From assembly GCF_028649455.1 (NCBI RefSeq), contig NZ_JAQSIO010000016.1:1-37535 (forward strand): DNA of 37,535 nucleotides, given 5' to 3'. Origin of the DNA: Curvibacter microcysteis. Lineage in GTDB: Bacteria; Pseudomonadota; Gammaproteobacteria; Burkholderiales; Burkholderiaceae_C. The stretch's first letter is position 1. The number at the start of each line of letters is the position of its first letter. The position numbers and the translations under genes are program-made. Shown piece by piece: positions 3,834-37,535 of this stretch. Below the pieces are notes generated by a model, which saw only the letters and a program-made list of their open reading frames with translations, did no database searches and had not been told where the DNA came from.

Positions 3834-4336
3834 GCTGCCCTCCCACTCACCATCTCGCGCAGCATCTGCGTCCCCAAGTCATATCCCGCATCCAACAGGG
3901 CCTGCAGCTGCACGGCGCCGGTGGCCAGCTGCAGGGGGCCCATGGTGTCCATGACGCGCTGCAGGGCCAGCATGCCCACCTGCAGGCTCGGGCGCAGCTC
4001 CTCCAGCCGCCAGTTAGCGATCTGGATGTCGCCCAGGCTTTCAGCCATGCCCATCATGATGTTCACGTCCGCGTACTCTGGATCGCCCCAGCCTTGATTG
4101 ATGCAGTAGCAGGTCATGAACAGCAGTTGGCCCAGCTCGCCCAGCAGCTTGGCGGGGTCTGCGCCCAGCCAGGTGGCCAGGCCTGCATTGACGCGCAGGG
4201 CGGCGATGTTCTTGGCAATTTCAGACTGCAGGGCGGCGATGCCCACTGGGCTGCCCAGGGCCTCGCATTTGCGGGCTGTGGGTTTGGTGTGATGGCGCTG
4301 CTGGCGGGCAGCGGCGCGGCGGTCGGCGCGGTTCAT
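3830..4336 (-). CDS. Hypothetical protein
   Basis: A 168-aa protein with a basic N-terminus (MNRADRRAAARQQRHHTKP) followed by a mostly helical body and no membrane segment. The N-terminal NRADRRAAARQ pattern is common in phage proteins of unknown function. Start and stop are both coupled to neighbours by ATGA overlaps. No enzymatic motif can be identified. Confidence 0.7.
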   Translation of the reverse strand: MNRADRRAAARQQRHHTKPTARKCEALGSPVGIAALQSEIAKNIAALRVNAGLATWLGADPAKLLGELGQLLFMTCYCINQGWGDPEYADVNIMMGMAESLGDIQIANWRLEELRPSLQVGMLALQRVMDTMGPLQLATGAVQLQALLDAGYDLGTQMLREMVSGRAA

Positions 4337-4833
4337 GCTGCGGCTCCGGTGGTCTGCTCGATCAGCTCCACCCGCCCGTCGCGGTAATGCAGGCGCTGGC
4401 CCATGCGGCTGGGCAGCGCAAACGCATCCATGGCGCCGGGGCGGCCTTGGTAGGGGCGCAGTTCCTGGCCTTGGTACACGGTCGGGAGGTAGTGCTTGAC
4501 CTGTACCTCAGCGGCTTTTTCTTTGGAGCTCACCCCCGGCGACTTGATGACACGCGCCCCCGATGTTTGGATGACTTCAGTGCCAGCGCTGGTGATGCTG
4601 TAAACCGGTTGGCGCGGGCCTTCGCGTCGGCAAACACACACATAGCCCCGCTTGGCCATACCGCGCAGGCGGCCCGACAGGTCGATCTGGTCATCCTCCT
4701 TGGGGAGCGCTTTAGCCAGGGATTTGAGGTTGACTTCGCCCAGGTTTTGGATTGTCTTGAGCAGGCCAATGTTCTTGGGCGCCCAGGGGCGGCCGGTGCA
4801 GATCACGGTCATGGATTCTTGGACGTTACGCAT
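4333..4833 (-). CDS. Putative winged-helix protein
   Basis: A 166-aa protein. Residues about 18-80 (APKNIGLLKTIQNLGEVNLK, then LRGMAKRGYVCVCRREGPRQ, then PVYSITSAGTEVI) read as a MarR/ArsR-like winged helix: three helices, a basic wing, and the common YSITSAG strand-helix ending. The C-terminal half is polar and unrecognised. It may regulate phage or host genes, or load a replication partner. The start at 4833 follows GAGGACC at good spacing; the longer reading from 4938 overlaps the upstream gene needlessly. Confidence 0.6.
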   Translation of the reverse strand: MRNVQESMTVICTGRPWAPKNIGLLKTIQNLGEVNLKSLAKALPKEDDQIDLSGRLRGMAKRGYVCVCRREGPRQPVYSITSAGTEVIQTSGARVIKSPGVSSKEKAAEVQVKHYLPTVYQGQELRPYQGRPGAMDAFALPSRMGQRLHYRDGRVELIEQTTGAAA

Positions 4834-5660: not shown

Positions 5661-6181
5661 GCGGCACTCCCATAGGTGCGCGGCACAATGGCCTTACCAA
5701 AAAGGAGAGGCGCATGCAAACCAACGGATTGATTCATACCATCAACCGCAGCCGAGGTATGTTTCTGGTGGACTACAGCCTGGCTGGCTTTGGGTTCACT
5801 GCCTACGAGCTGCTCGCGGAGGTTGAACTCACGGTCGGCGCCGAGGTCGTTGGCGATCCCACTCAAGCAGGGCCGCAACAGCTCTTTGGCATGGGCAAAG
5901 GTAATGTTTACGATGTTTGCGCCCAGCAGGTGGCATGCAGTCTGAATGCTGGCCTCCGGGCTATAGGGTTCGCGTAACTTGTTGAACAGGTAATCGTTTT
6001 CCGGCAGCTGTGCAATCAGGCGCAGTGCGTCAGCCTGCCCGCGCCAGTACAGGAAGGTGGCCTCACGGTTGTCTTCAACTGCATACACCATGCACTTGAT
6101 GGCGCGGGCCAGCAATCCTTCAATGGCCGCCTGGATTTGATGCAGATGGCCAAAGGTGGCCTGTTCTTGATGGGTGCTCAT
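5654..6181 (-). CDS. Hypothetical protein
   Basis: A 175-aa soluble, largely helical protein beginning MSTHQEQATFGHLHQIQAAI. The C-terminal 40 residues look low in structure. The local GC is lower than in neighbouring structural genes, which hints at a separate origin. The start overlaps the upstream stop (ATGA at 6178-6181). No motif points to a function. Confidence 0.65.
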   Translation of the reverse strand: MSTHQEQATFGHLHQIQAAIEGLLARAIKCMVYAVEDNREATFLYWRGQADALRLIAQLPENDYLFNKLREPYSPEASIQTACHLLGANIVNITFAHAKELLRPCLSGIANDLGADREFNLREQLVGSEPKASQAVVHQKHTSAAVDGMNQSVGLHAPLLFGKAIVPRTYGSAAC

Positions 6182-6585
6182 GCTGCACCCCCTTCCACGC
6201 GAATCGACTCTTTCGACTCGAGTGCATCAACCATGTCCAGTGCGATCTCTGCGAACTGCCGAGCTTGGTCCCTGCCGCCAATGTCCCCATGGGTGCTGGA
6301 AATCATGGCTGCAACAAGCCCAGTGGCCATTTCCAATCGCTTGGAATCGGTTTTCGACTCGTCGGCGATGGCATTCTTCAGCAGCCAAAGCAGATAGATG
6401 ATGACTTCGACGTAGTGTTTTTTGGTGAGGCCTGAGAGGCTCGAAAGCTTGGTGTCGGGCGATGTGTAGTTAAACAGTTCCAGTGCAGAACTGATATGCG
6501 CTCGCAGCAAAGCCTGTCCAAAGGCATGGGGCAGCGCATTTGCCGTGAGTGCGCTATCAAGGGTTTGCTCCAAATAAACCTTCAT
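6178..6585 (-). CDS. Hypothetical protein
   Basis: A 135-aa helical protein with a hydrophobic stretch (VEVIIYLLWLLKNAI, about residues 59-73) too short to be a confident membrane helix. It ends RVEGGAA, exactly as the gene upstream does, and the DNA around the two stop/start junctions (6178 and 6582) is nearly the same. That suggests exchange of gene cassettes at conserved junctions. No family is recognised. Confidence 0.65.
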   Translation of the reverse strand: MKVYLEQTLDSALTANALPHAFGQALLRAHISSALELFNYTSPDTKLSSLSGLTKKHYVEVIIYLLWLLKNAIADESKTDSKRLEMATGLVAAMISSTHGDIGGRDQARQFAEIALDMVDALESKESIRVEGGAA

Positions 6586-6803
6586 GCGGCACCCCCTTCC
6601 ACGCGCTCGACGCGCAACACCGGCAAGCCGGTGACGTGGTGGGCGGCGGCCTGGGCGCGGTCGCTGCAGCGGGCCTTGACGCGGATGGTCGGCAGGGTGC
6701 CGGCGTCAGCCTTGGTTTCAACCTGGTTGAGGTCCAGGCCCTTGGGGATCAGCACTGCGCGGTAGCTGCGCAGAGGGCGGATCTCGGTGGTGGTGGGGGA
6801 CAT
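6582..6803 (-). CDS. First gene of the leftward operon, hypothetical
   Basis: A 73-aa basic protein (MSPTTTEIRPLRSYRAVLIP at the start) with an AGGAG ribosome binding site. It is the first gene downstream of the PL-like promoter and its three operators, the position of N or similar early regulators in lambdoid phages. It does not have the short arginine-rich N peptide pattern that would support antitermination. Function is unknown. Confidence 0.65.
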   Translation of the reverse strand: MSPTTTEIRPLRSYRAVLIPKGLDLNQVETKADAGTLPTIRVKARCSDRAQAAAHHVTGLPVLRVERVEGGAA

Positions 6804-6841
6804 TTTTCACTCCTGGCCCTGATGGGTAGGGCGCGGAGTGA

Positions 6842-6905
6842 AGTCTAATTTTAATAGACGATAGCAGTCAAGCGTTAATAGACAAAAAGTCTACTAGAAG
6901 TAGAA
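6842..6905 (-). promoter_or_regulatory. PL-like promoter with three 17-bp repressor operators (OL)
   Basis: Three 17-bp partly palindromic sites fit GTCTA-N7-TAGAC: 6843-6859 (both halves perfect), 6867-6883 (left half GTCAA) and 6889-6905 (right half TAGAA). Start-to-start spacing is 24 and 22 bases. A leftward promoter overlaps them: -35 TTGACT (6871-6866) and -10 TAGACT (6847-6842), spacing 18. The same site family flanks the repressor start at 8302-8365, so the repressor should silence the whole leftward operon from here. Confidence 0.8.
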
Positions 6906-6906
6906 T
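6879..6906 (+). promoter_or_regulatory. Rightward promoter inside the OL cluster
   Basis: TAGACA (6879-6884) and TAGAAT (6901-6906), 16 bases apart, match the -35 and -10 consensus at five of six positions each. Both hexamers overlap operators, so this promoter would also be repressor-controlled. It points to the 92-aa membrane-protein gene starting at 6942. Confidence 0.5.
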
Positions 6907-6941
6907 CCACTTGATGCTATCCCGGCGAACTAGGAGTGACG

Positions 6942-7220
6942 ATGCAGAAGTCGATAGACGAAAAAAAACCCGCTGAGGGCGGGTTGATGGGTCGTTGGGC
7001 TAAGTGGCGCCTGCGGCGCACGATCAATCGCGATCGAATGCGCAGGGAGCGCGAAGAAAAAGAGCGGGGGGATTGGGGCTACATCCCGCCCGGGGCGTTT
7101 TTGGTGCCACGGCGCGCCTATCGCCTCACCAGGATCTGCTTTTTGATCTGCATCCTATCCGATTTCATCACTTTGATTGATCTGTGGCATCGCGGGGCAT
7201 TGAGTTGGCTATTTGGGTGA
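6942..7220 (+). CDS. Small membrane protein transcribed from OL
   Basis: A 92-aa protein with a very basic N-terminal half (WAKWRLRRTINRDRMRRERE) and a hydrophobic segment near the C-terminus (about residues 67-84, ICFLICILSDFITLIDLW). A single-pass or hairpin membrane protein with a large basic cytoplasmic part is likely. AGGAG precedes the ATG at 6942; an in-frame GTG at 6936 lies inside that site and is rejected. Unusually, codons 7-14 contain a rho-independent terminator for the opposite strand. It converges with the gene at 7223-7642, only 2 bases apart. Superinfection immunity or membrane sensing are guesses only. Confidence 0.65.
   Translation: MQKSIDEKKPAEGGLMGRWAKWRLRRTINRDRMRREREEKERGDWGYIPPGAFLVPRRAYRLTRICFLICILSDFITLIDLWHRGALSWLFG
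6960..6984 (-). terminator. Rho-independent terminator for the repressor transcript
   Basis: On the minus strand AACCCGC and GCGGGTT form a 7-bp stem with a 5-base loop, followed by eight T. It would stop leftward transcription from the repressor and its downstream gene before it enters the PL operon. It lies inside the coding region of the opposing 92-aa gene. Confidence 0.75.
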
Positions 7221-7222
7221 GG

Positions 7223-7642
7223 CTATTTCACCAGAAGGTCGCGGATGGCCAACGCGACTGCTACGGTTCCTGTTGCGGCAGCAACGAACCCTAGCCAGAA
7301 ATTGTGGTCTTTCCACCAAGCGGGCCGTTTGAACTTTTCCGCTTGACGGCGCAATAGTTCGCTTGTGATCGCCATCTTTGTGCCATCGTCAAGCGGCCTT
7401 TGTTCGTGCCGGATTTCTGTCGTCAGAAATCGCATCAACTGATCCTCGTTCATTGCGCGAAGATCTTCGAGCTTGAGGCTGATAGGGGTCGGCGGTGGCT
7501 CAGGAAAGAATGGCCGGTACATTGGCTGCGCAATTTCCTGCTCTGGCGGCATCGGAATTTCCACATCCGCAAGGCGCGGTGCCTTGGGGGCGGCCTTGAT
7601 CGCCTCCGCTATCGATTGCTTCCCGTCTGGGTTCTCGCGCAT
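7223..7642 (-). CDS. Repressor-linked membrane protein, candidate lysogenic conversion gene
   Basis: A 139-aa protein directly downstream of the repressor (23-base gap), so probably expressed in the lysogen. The N-terminal part is proline-rich and cytoplasmic (EIPMPPEQEIAQPMYRPFFP); residues about 115-135 (FWLGFVAAATGTVAVALAIR) form one C-terminal transmembrane helix, giving a tail-anchored layout. GGGAGG lies about 7 bases before the ATG at 7642, which fixes the start over longer readings. Genes in this position are often superinfection-exclusion or rex-like, but no homology is claimed. Confidence 0.7.
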   Translation of the reverse strand: MRENPDGKQSIAEAIKAAPKAPRLADVEIPMPPEQEIAQPMYRPFFPEPPPTPISLKLEDLRAMNEDQLMRFLTTEIRHEQRPLDDGTKMAITSELLRRQAEKFKRPAWWKDHNFWLGFVAAATGTVAVALAIRDLLVK

Positions 7643-7665
7643 CACCCATCCTCCCATTTTTTTTG

Positions 7666-8292
7666 TTATTTGGGCTGCCACTTCGAGGCCGCCACTACTG
7701 CCGCCACCGGGTGTATCCACTCCAGATCATCGCGATCAATAGTGCGACGATGGTTGCCGTTTACCGATTCAATGACCACTTCGTGGGTGCGCTCAATGAC
7801 CAGCTCTTTAACCATCTTGGAGCCATCCTTGAGTGCAATAGCAACGTATTCGCCAGGCACGGGCCTGCCATGCGGCTCAACGATGACAAACGACCCGTGA
7901 CGGATTGCCGGATGCATGCTGTCGCCCTTCACCCGCAGAGCGTAAGCGCTGGGGTCAGAACTGTACCCATCCACGTAGCCGTCGCCGTGGCCACCCGGAT
8001 ACTGCAGTTCCTCGTAAAAACCATCCTCGCCCATCTTTGCCGTCCCTACGACTGGCGTTCGGCGCGTGGTCTTTGGTGTGCCTGCTTGCTCGAACCCGTC
8101 TTGTTGATCAATCAAGTCGCCCGGCAATGGAAACCCGGTCAACTCGTGAATGGCCATCACTTGGTCAAAACTAGGCTTGGTTTTGCCAGTTTCCCAGTGC
8201 CCGACAGCGCCTTTGCCGCGACCTAGCTTCTCGCCAAGCTGCTCCAACGTCAGCTTTCCGCGCGCGGCTTTGACCCAGTGCTTCAGTTCCAT
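7666..8292 (-). CDS. cI: CI-type repressor with S24 self-cleavage domain
   Basis: The 208-aa lysogeny repressor. Residues about 8-50 form a helix-turn-helix (LTLEQLGEKLGRGKGAVGHW), then a linker, then a LexA/UmuD-like S24 domain. Ser125 in GDSMHP and Lys162 in MVKEL are 37 residues apart, the spacing of LexA Ser119 and Lys156, so RecA-stimulated self-cleavage is expected. No Ala-Gly sits at the usual distance before Ser125 (the only Ala-Gly is 70-71), so the cleavage site may differ, for example near VGTAKMG. The start at 8292 is chosen because upstream sequence holds the operators. A TATACG box at 8306-8301 would place the transcript start at or next to the ATG, giving a leaderless mRNA as for lambda PRM. 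Confidence 0.92.
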   Translation of the reverse strand: MELKHWVKAARGKLTLEQLGEKLGRGKGAVGHWETGKTKPSFDQVMAIHELTGFPLPGDLIDQQDGFEQAGTPKTTRRTPVVGTAKMGEDGFYEELQYPGGHGDGYVDGYSSDPSAYALRVKGDSMHPAIRHGSFVIVEPHGRPVPGEYVAIALKDGSKMVKELVIERTHEVVIESVNGNHRRTIDRDDLEWIHPVAAVVAASKWQPK

Positions 8293-8300
8293 GCGCCGAT

Positions 8301-8366
8301 CGTATAGGTTTGATAGACGGTATTGGTCTAGTATTGCTTGACCTTCTGGTCTATTTAAAATAGACT
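8301..8366. promoter_or_regulatory. OR region: three operators with divergent PR and PRM
   Basis: Three 17-bp sites of the GTCTA-N7-TAGAC family: 8302-8318 (left half GTATA), 8326-8342 (right half TTGAC) and 8349-8365 (both halves perfect), spaced 24 and 23 bases. PR for the Cro-like gene: -35 TTGACC (8338-8343), 17-base spacer, -10 TAGACT (8361-8366). PRM for the repressor on the minus strand: weak -35 TAGACC (8330-8325) and -10 TATACG (8306-8301), spacing 18. A strong PR and weak PRM fit a lambda-type switch in which bound repressor activates its own gene. Confidence 0.85.
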
Positions 8367-8395: not shown

Positions 8396-8653
8396 ATGGA
8401 ACACCCCATTGATCGTGCAGCGAAAGTTGTCGGCTCCCTTGCGGAGCTGGCTCGCTGCCTCGGCGTAACCCGTGGCGCTGTTAACCACTGGAAGCTGCCC
8501 GGGCGCACCACGCCGCCAGAGCACTGCCCAAAAATTGAGCGTATGACCGGCGTGCGTTGCGAAGAACTGAACCCCGATATCGATTGGACGGTGCTGCGAA
8601 ACAATCTGCCCGAGCGCACCCGCCGCACCCAGGCACAGGACGTGCAGGCATGA
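8396..8653 (+). CDS. cro: Cro-like regulator (YdaS-type HTH)
   Basis: An 85-aa protein divergent from the repressor. Residues about 8-35 (VVGSLAELARCLGVTRGAVN) are a helix-turn-helix of the YdaS/Cro type, and the sequence PPEHCPKIERMTGVRCEELN is typical of that family. The start at 8396 follows GGAAGG; a start at 8366 would lie in the promoter -10. It would bind the same operators and favour lytic growth. Confidence 0.88.
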   Translation: MEHPIDRAAKVVGSLAELARCLGVTRGAVNHWKLPGRTTPPEHCPKIERMTGVRCEELNPDIDWTVLRNNLPERTRRTQAQDVQA

Positions 8654-8715
8654 ATCCCCAAGTACCACCACGCCGTCCGCCACCCAGCTACTTTGAAGCG
8701 ATTGCACGGCAGCGA

Positions 8716-9204
8716 TCACGTGAGCTTCTTGCTCAAGCCGATGCTGGTCTTGCAGCTGGGGCAGGTCAGATCGGGCGGGCACATTTCGTTTCCCGGGTGG
8801 TAACGCAGCAAGACGCTCTTGCCCAAGACCTCCAGGCACGGCTGACAAGCGTAGCGCTTGGGGGTGCGATACAGGCCAACTCCTGGCACCTGGAAAACTT
8901 CGCGGTTATCCAGCAACTCAAGAACGAAGACACCCTCGTCAACTTCGACCACGCGGTGCTCAGCCTTCTTGGCTGCGGCGGCCTCCAATTGGCGAATTTT
9001 CTCGTTCGCCTCGGCGAGCTTTGCAACCAACGCCGCCTGGGTGCTTTGTCCGTCGATGACTGCCTGCTGCGCCTTGATGATTTGTTCGTTCAGTTTGGCG
9101 CTTGTCTCGCTGAGCTTCGCCCAGTCCCTGGTGTCCATGGCTGCCTTGGCAACGCCGACCAATCCAACAAGCCCGCTGAGCGCGGCTCCGATTTCACTGC
9201 TCAT
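8716..9204 (-). CDS. Coiled-coil protein with C-terminal zinc ribbon, opposite to the early operon
   Basis: A 162-aa protein. An N-terminal glycine/alanine-rich hydrophobic patch (IGAALSGLVGLVGVAKAAM) is followed by a coiled coil (about residues 35-85), a short beta region (VVEVDEGVFVLELLDNREVF) and a four-Cys zinc ribbon (CQPC then CPPDLTCPSC). The coherent domain order makes this strand the coding one, although an open frame runs through it on the plus strand. It points against the cro/CII operon, the usual layout of an independently expressed accessory gene. AGGG lies 8 bases before the ATG. Function is unknown. Confidence 0.75.
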   Translation of the reverse strand: MSSEIGAALSGLVGLVGVAKAAMDTRDWAKLSETSAKLNEQIIKAQQAVIDGQSTQAALVAKLAEANEKIRQLEAAAAKKAEHRVVEVDEGVFVLELLDNREVFQVPGVGLYRTPKRYACQPCLEVLGKSVLLRYHPGNEMCPPDLTCPSCKTSIGLSKKLT

Positions 9205-9229
9205 GGTGAATCCCTGAAAGGTTGATGTG

Positions 9230-11410: not shown

Positions 11411-13830
11411 TGGCGTCGAATTACGATGATGTCCTGGCCCAGCTGCAAGGGGCTGGCCTCCTGGTCGACAGCCTGGATGTGGGGCGCCTGCGCCGCGTCA
11501 AGGTTGAGGGCGACAAGGAAAAGCGGGGCTGGTACCTGCTGCACGAGATGCGCCTGGACAACGGTGATGACCTGATCGTCGGCACCTATGGCGTCTGGCG
11601 TGGCAATGAGAACCACTCGACCAAAGTCGAGCTGCGCAAGCAGGATCTCAGCCAAGACCAGAAAGCCAGCCTGCGCAAGCGCCTCGAGGAAGACCGCCGC
11701 CGCGTCGAAGCTGAGCGCAAAGCCGACGCCGAACGCGCCGCCCAGGCGGCCGGCAAAGCCTGGCGCCGATATTCAGAGCAGGGCGAGTGCGACTACCTGG
11801 CCCGCAAGGGGATCCGCGGCCATGGCGTGCGCTACACGGCCGAGGGTTCCATCGTGATCCCGATGCTGGATGTGATGGGCGGCATCCATGGCCTGCAGAT
11901 CATCCGCAGCAGCACCAGCCGCAAGATGGCCAAGGAGTACTGGCCCACCGGCCTGGTCAAGAAGGGCCACTTCCACATGCTGGGCATGCCAGGCCCAATC
12001 ATCCTGGTGGCCGAGGGCTACGCCACGGCGGCCAGCCTGCACGAAGCCAGCGGCCTGCCGGTGGCTGTTGCCTTCGATGCGGGCAATCTGGGCCCAGTGT
12101 CCGAGGCGCTGCACAAGCGCTACAAGACCGCCAAGCTGCTGATCTGCGCTGACGATGACCAGACCCAAAAATGCCAGGTCGAGGGCTGCCGCCAGCGCGT
12201 GTGGGTGGCCGATGGTCCCATCTGCCCCCACTGCGGTCAGCCGCACCGCGCGGGCAATGCCGGCATCACCTCGGCCAGCGCAGCCGCCATGTCAGTGGGC
12301 GGCGCCTGGATGGCCCCAGCCTTCGCGGACCTTGCTGCCGTGCGCCAGGCCTGGATGGACAAGGGCACCAAGCTCAACGACTTCAATGACCTGCATCTGG
12401 CCGAGGGCCTACATGTCGTGCGCTCCCAGGTGGAGACCCGCCTCCTGGCATTGGGCTGGCGTCTCGCCCCGGCCGCCCTGCGCATCAGCGCCAAACAGGG
12501 GGAGGGGGATAAGCCTGAGCGCGACCCGCTCAAGCCGATCGACTCCCTCGATGAGCTGCTGGACCGTTACGCCCTGGTCTATGGCCAAGGTGGCACTGTG
12601 TTTGACCACCAGGAACATGTGCTGGTCGCGCTGAGCGACATGCGCGACGCCTGCCTCACCCGCAACCTGCACCGCGAGTGGGCCGAGCACCCCGACAAGA
12701 AACTGGTTCGTGTCTCCGAAGTCGGCTTCGACCCGGCCTGCACCGACCCGAACATCCACTGCAACCTGTGGTCCGGCTGGCCTACCACGCCGCAAGCAGG
12801 GCGCTGTGAAAACCTGCTAGCCCTGCTGCAGTACATGTGCGCCGAGGACAGCCGCCCCGACCAGCTCTACACATGGGTGCTGCGTTGGCTGGCCTACCCC
12901 ATCCAGCACCCTGGCGCCAAGATGAAGACCACCTTGGTCATCCACGGCCCACAGGGCACGGGTAAGAACATGTTCTTTGAGGCCATCATGGACATCTATG
13001 GCCGCTACGGCCGGGTGATCGACCAGAGCGCTATCGAGGACAAGTTCAACGACTGGGCCAGCCGCAAGCTGTTCCTGATTGCCGATGAGGTGGTGGCCCG
13101 CTCGGACCTGTACCACATCAAGAACAAGCTCAAGGCATTCATCACCGGGGAATGGATCCGCATCAACCCCAAGAACATGGCGGCCTATGAGGAACGCAAC
13201 CACGTCAACATGGTGTTCCTCTCCAATGAGGCCATGCCCGTGGTGCTCGAGGAAGACGATCGGCGCCACACCGTCATCTGGACGCCAGAGAAGCTCAGCC
13301 CTGAGTTCTACCAAGGCATCAAGGCCGAGATCGACAACGGCGGCGTGGCCGCTCTGCATGACTACCTGCTGCACCTGGACCTGGGCGACTTTGGCCCTGC
13401 CACGTTGCCACCCATGACCGATGCCAAGCGCGAGCTGGTGGACCTTAGCAAAGACAGCCCCAGCCGCTTTGTCCAAGCCTTTGAGTCGGGTGACATTGAC
13501 GGCTTCCCCGCCAAAACCTCATCCGTGGGCCTGCTGCTGCCGGCGCTCAGCACCGACCTCTACACCCTCTATACGGTCTGGTGTGGGCGTGTCGGGCTCA
13601 AGGCCCTCAACTTGCCTAAGTTCAGCAATGCCCTCATGCGCAAGCACAAGGCCCGCACCGATCGAAAGCGCTACTCCATCGACGGCACAAGCGACAAAGG
13701 CCCCGCGGCCATCGTCAGCATGCCCGGCGGTCACGAGTTGCCCCCTGGCACCCGTGAGTCCACCTGGTTCGGTGAACGCATCCACGCTTTTCAGCAGTCC
13801 CTCAAGGACTACCGGGGAGCCGCACTGTGA
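11410..13830 (+). CDS. Primase-helicase (TOPRIM plus SF3-type helicase)
   Basis: An 806-aa phage replication protein. The N-terminal 130 residues are a charged helical region. A TOPRIM primase domain follows: EGYATAASLHEASG (Glu near residue 202) and LLICADDD (near 246). Directly after the DDD motif is a zinc ribbon (Cys residues from about 255 to 277, CQVEGC and CPHC), an unusual place; the domain resumes with GNAGITSASAAA. The C-terminal half is a D5/SF3-like ATPase with Walker A GPQGTGKN (near residue 512) and Walker B LFLIADEVV (near 555), followed by the DUF5906-type region (INPKNMAAYEERNHVNMVFL). It should open the origin and prime replication. The start overlaps the stop of the preceding small ORF by one base. 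Confidence 0.92.
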   Translation: MASNYDDVLAQLQGAGLLVDSLDVGRLRRVKVEGDKEKRGWYLLHEMRLDNGDDLIVGTYGVWRGNENHSTKVELRKQDLSQDQKASLRKRLEEDRRRVEAERKADAERAAQAAGKAWRRYSEQGECDYLARKGIRGHGVRYTAEGSIVIPMLDVMGGIHGLQIIRSSTSRKMAKEYWPTGLVKKGHFHMLGMPGPIILVAEGYATAASLHEASGLPVAVAFDAGNLGPVSEALHKRYKTAKLLICADDDQTQKCQVEGCRQRVWVADGPICPHCGQPHRAGNAGITSASAAAMSVGGAWMAPAFADLAAVRQAWMDKGTKLNDFNDLHLAEGLHVVRSQVETRLLALGWRLAPAALRISAKQGEGDKPERDPLKPIDSLDELLDRYALVYGQGGTVFDHQEHVLVALSDMRDACLTRNLHREWAEHPDKKLVRVSEVGFDPACTDPNIHCNLWSGWPTTPQAGRCENLLALLQYMCAEDSRPDQLYTWVLRWLAYPIQHPGAKMKTTLVIHGPQGTGKNMFFEAIMDIYGRYGRVIDQSAIEDKFNDWASRKLFLIADEVVARSDLYHIKNKLKAFITGEWIRINPKNMAAYEERNHVNMVFLSNEAMPVVLEEDDRRHTVIWTPEKLSPEFYQGIKAEIDNGGVAALHDYLLHLDLGDFGPATLPPMTDAKRELVDLSKDSPSRFVQAFESGDIDGFPAKTSSVGLLLPALSTDLYTLYTVWCGRVGLKALNLPKFSNALMRKHKARTDRKRYSIDGTSDKGPAAIVSMPGGHELPPGTRESTWFGERIHAFQQSLKDYRGAAL

Positions 13831-15755: not shown

Positions 15756-17704
15756 GACTGGCCGAAGGCTTCTGCACCCCCGCCCACGGCTTGGCTGCAT
15801 TCGCGCGGGCCGTAGCCCCTCGCAAGGCCATGTCCGTCTCGCAATGGGCCGATGTGGAGCGCAAACTCAGCAGCAAGGGCAGCAGCATCCAGGGCCAGTG
15901 GTCCACCGACCGCAACCCCCCGCTGCGCGAGCCCATGGACTGCCTCAGCGCCCGCAGCGGCGTGCGCGATGTGGGCCTCATGTTCCCCATCCAGTTCGGC
16001 AAGACCGAGGTGGCCATCAACGCTCTGGGCTACTGCATGGACCACGACCCCGCCCCGGTCATGGTCTGCTTGCCTGGCGAGGTGTCCATGAACAAATGGG
16101 TGGCCCAAAAGCTCAACCCCGCGGTGGACGAATCCCCCGCCATGAAACGCGCCCTGACCAGCGTGGCCAGCCGCGACAGCAGCAACACCCGCACGTTCAA
16201 GGACTTTGCCGGCGGCCAGCTCTACATTGAGCACGCCGGTAGCCCGGCCCGTCTCAAGTCCACCACGGTGCGCAAGCTCATCGTGGACGAGGTGGACGAG
16301 TTCGCCAACAGCCTCACCGGCGGCGATGACCCCCTGGACATGCTCAACGGCCGAACCTCGGCATTCCCCAGCACCTACCAGCGGCTGTACATCAGCACCC
16401 CTCAGATCAAAGGCATCAGCCGCATCGAGTTCATCTGGCTCAAGAGCGACCAGCGCCGGTACCACGTCCCGTGCCCGCACTGCCAGCACATGCAGCACCT
16501 CGAGTGGGCGGGCCTGCACTGGACCCCCGACCTCAGCCAGGTCTGGTACGTGTGCCAGGAGTGCGGCGCCCACATTGATGAGCACCACAAAACCGAGATG
16601 ATCCGCCAGGGCCGCTGGATCGCTGGCAACCCGGGCGCCAAAACCCGGGGCTACCACATCAACTGCCTGTACTACCAGTTTGGCCTGGGCCCGCGCTGGG
16701 CCGATCTGGTCGAGATGTGGCGCGACGCCCAAAACGACCCTGCCAAGCTCAAAACATTCACCAACGACCGCCTGGCCGAGCCCTGGGAAGACGCCGCCAT
16801 GCGCAACGTCAAGCACGACGCCATTGCCGACCGGGCCGAGCCGTACGCCCTGCGCAGCGCCCCCGCTGGCGTGCTGCGCATCACTGCAGGCGTCGACACC
16901 CAAGACAATCGCCTGGCCGTGCAGATCGTGGGCTGGGGTCGGGGCATGGCGTTTTGGGTGCTGGACTATGTCGAGCTCATGGGCGATCCGGCTCAAAACG
17001 AGGTGTGGGACCAGCTGGCCGACCTGCTCAACCGCCCCATTCAGCATGCCAGCGGTGCGCTGATGCGTGTCGAAGCCATGGCCAACGATGCTGGGGGCCA
17101 CCGCACCGAAGACGTCAAGAATTTTGTGCGCAGCCGCCGCGTGGCCCGCCCGCTTTGCATCTTTGGTGCCGTGCCCAACAACGCCCCCGTCCTCAACAAA
17201 GGCAAGTTGCAGGACGTCAACTGGCGCGGCCAGCTCGACAAACGCGGCGTGCTGGTGCACCACGTCGGCACGGTAGCGGCCAAACACTGGCTGTTTTCTC
17301 GCCTCTCGACTGACGCCGACAAGGACCCCGCCAGCCGGGCCACCCATTTCAGCGACCAGCTGCCCGCCGAGTATTTTCCTGGCCTGGTCAGCGAAACCTA
17401 CGACCCCCGCAAAAACCGGTTTGAGAAGCGCCGCGGCGCCCGCAACGAACCGCTGGACACCTGGGTCTACGCCTACGCCGCAGCTCACCACCAAGAGCTG
17501 CGCATGCACCGGTACACCAAGGCCGACTGGGATCTGCTCGAAAAGCGCCTGCAGGCCCGCGTGCAACCAGGCGCGCAAGAGCCCACCACCGATGTGCAAG
17601 CAAAGCCGACCGCCCCGGTGCAGCCCGCCGCGCCCAGCCGCACCAACCCCAGCGCCCGCCAATGGGCCCGACGCAACTCATTTGCCACCAACTGGAAACG
17701 ATGA
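15752..17704 (+). CDS. Terminase large subunit (GpA family)
   Basis: The 650-aa packaging motor and nuclease, similar in length to lambda gpA (641 aa). Walker A is MFPIQFGKTE (about residues 76-85) and Walker B is KLIVDEVDEF (about 173-182). A zinc ribbon follows (CPHC near 243 and CQEC near 268). The C-terminal nuclease domain includes GVDTQDNRLAVQIVGWG (near 381), with the first metal-binding Asp. The family cuts at cos and translocates DNA into the prohead. The last 60 residues are a Pro/Ala-rich tail likely to contact the portal. Confidence 0.95.
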   Translation: MRLAEGFCTPAHGLAAFARAVAPRKAMSVSQWADVERKLSSKGSSIQGQWSTDRNPPLREPMDCLSARSGVRDVGLMFPIQFGKTEVAINALGYCMDHDPAPVMVCLPGEVSMNKWVAQKLNPAVDESPAMKRALTSVASRDSSNTRTFKDFAGGQLYIEHAGSPARLKSTTVRKLIVDEVDEFANSLTGGDDPLDMLNGRTSAFPSTYQRLYISTPQIKGISRIEFIWLKSDQRRYHVPCPHCQHMQHLEWAGLHWTPDLSQVWYVCQECGAHIDEHHKTEMIRQGRWIAGNPGAKTRGYHINCLYYQFGLGPRWADLVEMWRDAQNDPAKLKTFTNDRLAEPWEDAAMRNVKHDAIADRAEPYALRSAPAGVLRITAGVDTQDNRLAVQIVGWGRGMAFWVLDYVELMGDPAQNEVWDQLADLLNRPIQHASGALMRVEAMANDAGGHRTEDVKNFVRSRRVARPLCIFGAVPNNAPVLNKGKLQDVNWRGQLDKRGVLVHHVGTVAAKHWLFSRLSTDADKDPASRATHFSDQLPAEYFPGLVSETYDPRKNRFEKRRGARNEPLDTWVYAYAAAHHQELRMHRYTKADWDLLEKRLQARVQPGAQEPTTDVQAKPTAPVQPAAPSRTNPSARQWARRNSFATNWKR

Positions 17705-37479: not shown

Positions 37480-37535
37480 TGGTGCCCGGGGCCGGAATCG
37501 AACCGGCACGCCTTGCGGCGGGGGATTTTGAGTCC
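37480..37535 (-). tRNA. tRNA-Leu (CAA), 3' part, split by the prophage boundary
   Basis: The minus strand reads from the anticodon arm (loop CTCAAAA, anticodon CAA) through a long variable arm (class II tRNA) and a T arm (GGTTCGATTCC) to the acceptor end and encoded CCA at 37480. The 5' half lies beyond the window. The part left of the repeat core comes from the phage, so integration rebuilds a complete tRNA gene. The isotype is inferred from anticodon and class II arm. Confidence 0.85.
37515..37535. repeat. Right attachment-site core (attR side)
   Basis: Exact copy of bases 1-21. It spans the anticodon loop, the 3' side of the anticodon stem and the start of the variable arm of tRNA-Leu, a common target for tyrosine integrases. 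Its end coincides with the end of the window. Confidence 0.9.

Follow-up and report, generated by a model that had tools for sequence, protein, structure and literature searches.

The 37,535-nucleotide contig of Curvibacter microcysteis analysed here (the window) carries, in our reading, a lambda-type switch between lysis and lysogeny belonging to a temperate Curvibacter phage, and we hold this reading with high confidence. The switch is built around six 17-base pair (bp) operator sites of the pattern GTCTA-N7-TAGAC, arranged as two clusters of three, a left operator (OL) at the promoter PL and a right operator (OR) at the promoter PR, with the gene for a CI-type repressor between them (Table 1). 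The lambda-type plan of such switches is already known, and the window adds a further member with an operator sequence of its own.

A preliminary description made from the sequence alone had proposed six sites with at most one changed base per half, spaced 22 to 24 bases apart in two clusters about 1.4 kb from each other. These claims hold throughout: each site has no or one mismatch, the start-to-start spacings are 24 and 22 bp in the left cluster and 24 and 23 bp in the right, and the gap between the clusters is 1,396 bp, within which lies a cI gene whose product has both an HTH_3 and a Peptidase_S24 (S24) domain. The operator also differs from that of lambda, as had been supposed, when it is compared with the fetched lambda sequence. 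The layout itself is close to that of lambda, in that the OR sites start at -73, -50 and -26 relative to the cI ATG, as against -74, -50 and -27 in lambda.

Matches with at most one mismatch are confined to these six sites in the whole contig, so that the scattering of similar matches which would have spoken against an operator is not seen, and the corresponding Markov sequences contain 0.092 matches on average and two at most. A pair of sites no more than 30 bp apart occurs in none of 1000 Markov sequences. When two mismatches are allowed, the window has eight matches (shuffle mean 3.1; eight were reached in 2 of 100 shuffles), and the two additional ones, at 13558 and 33992, are both isolated. 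A matrix built from the six sites, which the preliminary description expected to return them as top hits, ranks all six first in the window with scores of 27.4 to 18.6, far above the next best match (9.3), and with a leave-one-out matrix the sites score 13.0 to 24.8 against 10.1 for the best non-site. The rest of the 4.82 Mb genome has 12 single sites with one mismatch, none of them clustered, while the pattern read backwards gave 61. This genome has the composite of promoter and operator, TTGAY-N6/7-GTCTA-N7-TAGACT, at two places, PL and PR; it is missing from all of 398 other genomes in a sample of the order.

Table 1. Features of the switch region, in window coordinates
Feature	Position	Strand	Description
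First left-operon gene	6582..6803	-	73 amino acids (aa)
PL leader hairpin	6806..6842	-	inverted repeat between PL and first left gene
PL promoter	6842..6871	-	TTGACT-18-TAGACT
OL1	6843..6859	-	0 mismatches; last half-site and next T form PL -10 box
OL2	6867..6883	-	1 mismatch; variant half-site TTGAC is PL -35 box
OL3	6889..6905	-	1 mismatch
Open reading frame (ORF) between cI and OL	6942..7220	+	92 aa, hydrophobic C-terminal stretch; opposite to cI
Terminator-like hairpin	6967..6985	-	faces left, ahead of OL
ORF after cI	7223..7645	-	140 aa, hydrophobic C-terminal end; cI orientation
cI repressor gene	7666..8292	-	208 aa, HTH_3 and Peptidase_S24
Putative PRM	8301..8330	-	TAGACC-18-TATACG, 8 nt ahead of cI ATG
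OR3	8302..8318	+	1 mismatch; overlaps putative PRM -10 box
OR2	8326..8342	+	1 mismatch; one half-site is PR -35 box, the other within putative PRM -35 box
PR promoter	8338..8366	+	TTGACC-17-TAGACT
OR1	8349..8365	+	0 mismatches; last half-site and T form PR -10 box
Cro-like gene	8396..8653	+	85 aa, YdaS family

Five distinct phages make up the window's group: the window itself, two prophages, one in Curvibacter gracilis (L016, the same as L006, L031 and L166) and one in C. lanceolatus (L017, the same as L007), and two viral contigs (L032 and L041). The three OR sites are kept in all four relatives and the three OL sites in three of them, while the distance between the clusters and the DNA that separates them differ (OR1 start to OL, 0.8-3.2 kb in the relatives). 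Within the sites, only 1 of 30 half-site columns is variable in OR and 3 of 20 in OL1 and OL2 combined, as against 10 of 13 linker columns in OR and 7 of 7 in OL.

The two clusters hold their promoters in the same manner. In both, the outer site (O1) is perfect and carries the -10 box TAGACT, which is a half-site plus T, and the middle site (O2) deviates from the pattern as TTGAC, which is the -35 box. The box offsets from the O1 start are identical in all five group phages (-35 at -11/-12, -10 at +12; lambda -10/+13), and at PR four of the five have TTGAT in place of TTGAC. The overlap of the clusters with PL and PR, as first described, is therefore borne out by the boxes, and the further overlap claimed for the repressor maintenance promoter (PRM) is plausible: the PRM-like sequence, formed by OR3 and the other half-site of OR2, recurs in all five phages and, to judge from its sequence, is probably PRM, overlapped by OR3 and touching OR2.

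From this arrangement we infer that a CI dimer most likely binds the six operators. Because O1 holds the -10 box and O2 the -35 box, CI on these two sites would shut the lytic promoters PL and PR, and, as in lambda, a PRM transcript would start no more than about 2 nt away from the first codon of cI. Looping between OL and OR is likely by analogy with the lambdoid repressors. An AlphaFold model of CI (based on 20 sequences) has a mean predicted local distance difference test score (pLDDT) of 79.5 and a predicted template modelling score (pTM) of 0.57; its best structural matches are a lambda-186 hybrid repressor and lambda repressors, with whole-chain template modelling scores (TM-scores) of only 0.38-0.48, and it matches the C-terminal part of lambda repressor with a TM-score of 0.72. 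In 23 aligned sequences S125 is invariant and K162 nearly so. Repressors of the LexA type usually have Ala-Gly at the site of self-cleavage; CI residues 80-91 contain Met-Gly at the presumed position, and several relatives have Leu-Gly. The first gene under PR, facing cI, encodes a Cro-like protein of the YdaS_toxin family (E-value 7e-21), with a match to P22_Cro below the cut-off of that family, and this protein would probably bind the same sites in a different order.

The operator class is not confined to this group. Scanning viral contigs with the composite, at the level of DNA only, gave at least 120 loci. Two GTCTA clusters were present at 15 of the first 80, compared with none in 20 shuffled sets, and at 5 of 40 further loci (the shuffles cover the first 80 only); the 20 two-cluster loci reduce to 17 distinct ones (L140 is a copy of L071, L165 of L121 and L166 of L016). 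Where the exact composite occurs on each strand, the two copies are divergent in 16 of 16 loci and lie 0.6-3.2 kb apart, these 16 including the copies L140, L165, L166 and L087 (on the contig of L032). A helix-turn-helix (HTH) protein at or between the clusters matches the CI profile at all 15 two-cluster loci of the first 80, with 44-58% identity to the N-terminal domain of the window's CI in seven and a weaker match in eight, and 3 of 10 of these proteins that were scanned pass the S24 cut-off while seven do not. Conversely, GTCTA clusters are found in none of 31 other loci that came from CI searches (some of these are near copies), and 18 of them, when aligned, have the C-terminal domain in common but other HTH sequences. 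Since the sites accompany related HTH proteins and are missing where only the C-terminal domain is shared, the sequences suggest that operator and HTH domain travel together and that the C-terminal domain is exchanged. A recognisable operator class with different repressor C-terminal domains is a natural test of exchangeable switch parts, and with the GTCTA operators the lambda switch plan now reaches a phage group beyond the enteric model phages. Searches of open-licence papers, one of them for the operator in four literal spellings, returned no report of this operator class among the matches listed.

A de novo search for two-cluster operators, run on 28 loci, recovered the six annotated sites of lambda. 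Eleven of the 28 exceeded their own shuffled maximum, two of them weakly (L020 and PHB09), and among the relatives from the CI searches L044, L045, L051 and Pseudomonas phage PS-1 are clearly above it, with OL/OR pairs of different motifs. L036, L039 and L049 were not above the shuffled maximum, and 14 loci gave nothing, including L032, L037 and L038, where sites can be made out by eye. For distant relatives, the architecture is therefore shown in some cases only.

Several observations weigh against the switch as we read it. The -10 boxes agree at only four of six positions, OL2 of L032 is reduced to its TTGAC half (OL1 and OL3 are kept), and no N-like antiterminator was recognised in the window. 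The eight weaker matches, from a profile search of a small database, may reflect general HTH similarity; HTH proteins are common in phage switches, and these matches are accordingly weak proof at those eight loci. In addition, the sites of L037 and L038, which have a related HTH, drift to GGATAG and GTATA forms and were missed by the two-cluster searches. The AT-rich promoter DNA of both clusters, and the resemblance of half-sites to -10 boxes, would fit an origin of the six sites by chance or as a promoter artefact. We give this explanation next to no weight, as a chance origin is excluded by the Markov controls, the conservation of the sites in relatives, the composite count in the genome sample and the cluster shuffles.

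A reading in which the six sites serve the Cro-like YdaS protein, or some unrelated regulator, instead of CI is also very improbable. Lambda Cro and CI share operators, which counts for this alternative. In prophage CP-933P, likewise, the footprints of YdaS and of PaaR2, a CI-like protein, overlap (PMC8630535). However, the GTCTA sites keep company with HTH proteins that match the CI N-terminal domain, closely in the seven loci above and more weakly in the other eight, and are missing from the 31 other loci of the CI searches. That the two clusters repress PL and PR independently, with no loop between OL and OR, we regard as less likely than not: all three lambdoid repressors tested loop OL to OR, over about 0.63, 0.7 and 2.3 kb (PMC8053113), and the window's CI has a lambda-like S24 domain. 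In favour of independent repression, the repressor of some phages with GTCTA operators is short, has no recognised S24 domain and may not form octamers, and the 933W repressor is reported to act without cooperativity between OR1 and OR2, in a phage described as having no OL3 (PMC5977221).

A second element of the switch region lies downstream of PL, where an inverted repeat separates the promoter from the first left gene; the preliminary description contains neither this element nor the two small ORFs between the clusters. The 3' arm of the predicted hairpin is the Shine-Dalgarno (SD) region of this gene, GGAGTGAA, and the 5' arm, TTCACTCC, starts at the last base of the PL -10 box, before the expected transcription start (+1), and lies within 7 nt of the box. 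The RNA folds at -21.2 kcal/mol (z-score -5.5) and the hairpin persists in a 198-nt fold. The stem is kept in all five group phages, with two compensated inner pairs, and is weaker in L017 and L032 (z-score -1.7). The same repeat was also considered as a further repressor site, which was rejected because it has a long loop and contains the SD.

The position of +1 was calibrated indirectly, from cro genes at PR. Leaderless messages need a start codon near +1. The distance from the PR -10 box to the cro ATG is exactly 7 nt in 9 of 15 loci and 8-10 nt in four more, and in three further loci it is 7 nt in two and 8 nt in one, which makes a distance from TAGACT of exactly 7 nt in 11 out of the 18 unrelated GTCTA-operator loci (L065, L066, L068, L071, L099, L109, L112, L121, L123, L150 and L153; the cro starts of L065, L066 and L099 are similar and not independent). 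These eleven are probable leaderless cro messages on the evidence of their sequences, while L072, L113 and all five phages of the window's group have an SD leader at cro instead. Given the leaderless start rule, +1 is probably at about the seventh base after the -10 box, and nearly all of the hairpin's 5' arm would thus fall outside the PL RNA.

We propose, with slightly less than even confidence and on the basis of predicted folds, that the PL leader hairpin is a translational lock on the first left gene in read-through RNA. Transcription from the cI side points at OL, and the terminator-like hairpin ahead of OL and the leader hairpin would each hinder the synthesis of left-operon protein from such RNA. 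Once CI is removed, PL RNA would start beyond the 5' arm and the first left gene would be translated. If true, the lock would explain how the left operon stays silent under read-through although the cI transcript points straight at PL. No report of such a leader at a lambda-type PL was among the matches listed for open-licence papers.

Homologues of the first left gene provide 35 distinct leaders, of which 14 have the promoter first, 15 have no promoter and six have no SD (two more loci have no start). In 8 of the 14 promoter-first leaders, the bases after the -10 box pair with the SD region better than in shuffles (p<0.05). The same leader layout is found at the PL of other phages with GTCTA operators, where the first gene belongs to the window gene's family in 1 of 11 checked (L072). 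A hand-picked set of 15 leaders (L065, L066, L099, L112 and L113 were left out) has the SD no more than 0.05 unpaired in read-through RNA in all 15, and the SD opens beyond shuffled leaders (p<0.05) in 10; the combined p for the window and ten unrelated loci is 1e-7. Six PR leaders with an SD served as controls (L041 was left out, its PR leader being that of L017) and show no such opening (combined p 0.67). Under a uniform rule, with 60 nt upstream and 40 nt downstream, a leader counts as closed at 0.05 or less unpaired and as open at 0.2 or more from +7. By this rule the read-through RNA is closed in 15 of 19 PL leaders, 12 of which then open; outside the window's group the numbers are 10 and 7 of 14. 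With the newest loci included, all five group phages and 10 of 17 scored unrelated loci are closed. One locus of the twenty, L112, has no start and was not scored, L099 and L113 were scored on loose SDs, and the starts of L071 (ORF of 36 aa), L109 (25 aa) and L123 (TTG start) are uncertain.

A number of these results count against the lock. The stem beats shuffles in only those eight promoter-first leaders, and in a longer context just 2 of 14 surpass 95 of 100 shuffled leaders in closure. For the window itself, the gain in opening over shuffled leaders has p=0.058, and the PL RNA remains mostly closed, with the SD only 0.23-0.40 unpaired. L068, L101 and L123 are closed in PL RNA too, and L065, L066, L069 and L122 are not fully closed in read-through RNA. 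The three newest loci, L150, L153 and L155, which were not used in forming the idea, have 0.38, 0.41 and 0.33 unpaired, so that none of the three is fully closed, and this lowers our confidence in the lock and in its general form; L155 has a stem beside its SD. Instead of a lock, the hairpin could be a stabiliser of the RNA 5' end, a binding site in the DNA for some other regulator, or a by-product of strong complementarity to the SD, an explanation to which we assign somewhat less than an even chance. The inverted repeat spans the promoter start and CTCC pairs with any GGAG, as such an explanation would have it, and it also draws on the three newest loci and on the long-context shuffles, which are often as closed. 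It accounts less readily for the arm letters, which vary between phages while the pairing with the SD region is kept, for the cro ATGs that suggest +1 at 7 nt, and for the PR leaders, which have an SD and no such effect. For the lock in its general form our confidence is more tentative than for the window's own leader: lambda-type prophages with GTCTA-N7-TAGAC operators and interchangeable repressor C-terminal domains may often lock the left operon twice, by CI at PL initiation and by a hairpin from the -10-to-+1 DNA against translation of upstream RNA, many of them with a leaderless cro at PR, in which case the same operator and -10 box would feed opposite modes of translation.

Protection against read-through is also known from IS10. 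The closest likeness to the proposed lock is gene e (lysozyme) of T4, in which the SD or start is hidden in long transcripts and is open in RNA from the proximal promoters, which is without the 5' portion of the structure (PMC3014915); that case is experimental, about 100-fold and concerns late promoters, whereas the window's is predicted and concerns a repressor-controlled early PL. An RNA of the Gifsy-1 prophage follows a different read-through logic (PMC4825925). As for the switch as a whole, the window shares with lambda two clusters of three 17-bp sites each, at site spacings of 20-24 bp, with cI between the clusters, divergent lytic promoters, OR sites whose distances to the cI start agree to within 1 bp, a PRM-like promoter directly before the cI start codon, and extra genes between cI and OL. 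It differs in the operator sequence, the distance between clusters (1.4 kb, against 2.3 kb in lambda), the YdaS-type Cro, the lack of a recognised N gene, and the first left gene, whose start lies 39 nt downstream of the PL -10 box and whose SD a predicted hairpin would hide. HK022 and phiKO2 resemble the window in that OL and OR flank the repressor in a short immunity region, and looping has been shown there (PMC8053113, PMC4997575). The phiKO2 switch, however, has five 16-bp sites and a repressor reportedly without self-cleavage residues (PMC4997575), as opposed to six 17-bp sites and an S24 domain. In the PaaR2/YdaS/YdaT system of CP-933P, a CI-like repressor faces YdaS, which is described as a Cro analogue, and both bind repeat operators; these are four 18-bp palindromes of another consensus, placed between the divergent genes, and the repressor has toxin-antitoxin genes next to it (PMC8630535).

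The slot between cI and OL is a known hotspot of accessory genes in lambdoid phages, and BstA and RexAB are examples from such cI-n regions (PMC8585504); the genes in the window and its relatives belong to other families. In L016 the slot is 137 bases long, with no space for a gene. L017 has an HNH protein there (3955-4659), L041 a DUF4145 protein with a weak PD-T7-4 match (5927-6787), and L032 a protein with hydrophobic stretches plus a CAP12/Pycsar-type Toll/interleukin-1 receptor (TIR) protein (6079-7788; CAP12, PDC-S35), all of which are candidate defence genes from their sequence matches. The window's 140-aa ORF matches one PHROG of unknown function (E-value 1.5e-5), with a sub-threshold Pfam match and a weak PADLOC match (E-value 0.011), and searches of phage records, viral contigs and 60 genomes gave no relative of it; for the 92-aa ORF, viral contigs and phage records gave none. 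As no relatives were found, the two ORFs could not be named. Half-sites of OL2 and OL3 also make up a right-pointing promoter-like sequence, TAGACA-16-TAGAAT (6879-6906), in front of the 92-aa ORF, which may be a by-product of the operator sequence. Terminator-like sites number three in the region scan, compared with 3.6 in shuffles. The first left gene has no match in Pfam, PHROGs or NCBIfam. Its relatives occur in Acidovorax phages (L061, L062 and L063), and in phage Aval that gene too is preceded by a promoter, a hairpin that hides the SD, and repeats of a different operator-like sequence.

The contig contains integrase, primase, terminase, portal, capsid, tape measure, endolysin and spanin-like genes, and is therefore probably a whole, complete-looking temperate tailed phage. 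An identical stretch of 21 bases stands at both ends (1-21 and 37515-37535), and the DNA preceding the right copy resembles, by eye, the 3' part of a tRNA gene; together these make the repeat a probable core of the attachment (att) site, and the contig may represent the phage in excised or circular form. ARAGORN found no tRNA in the window, and Rfam gave no match in it at gathering scores. Searching the DNA of the switch region against phage records returned a single short match in cI. Part of the terminase gene (15905-17248) has 72% DNA identity with Stenotrophomonas phage S1. Directly after cro, an ORF of 162 aa with cysteine pairs (8716-9204, minus strand) opposes the right operon and overlaps a plus-strand ORF (8557-9225).

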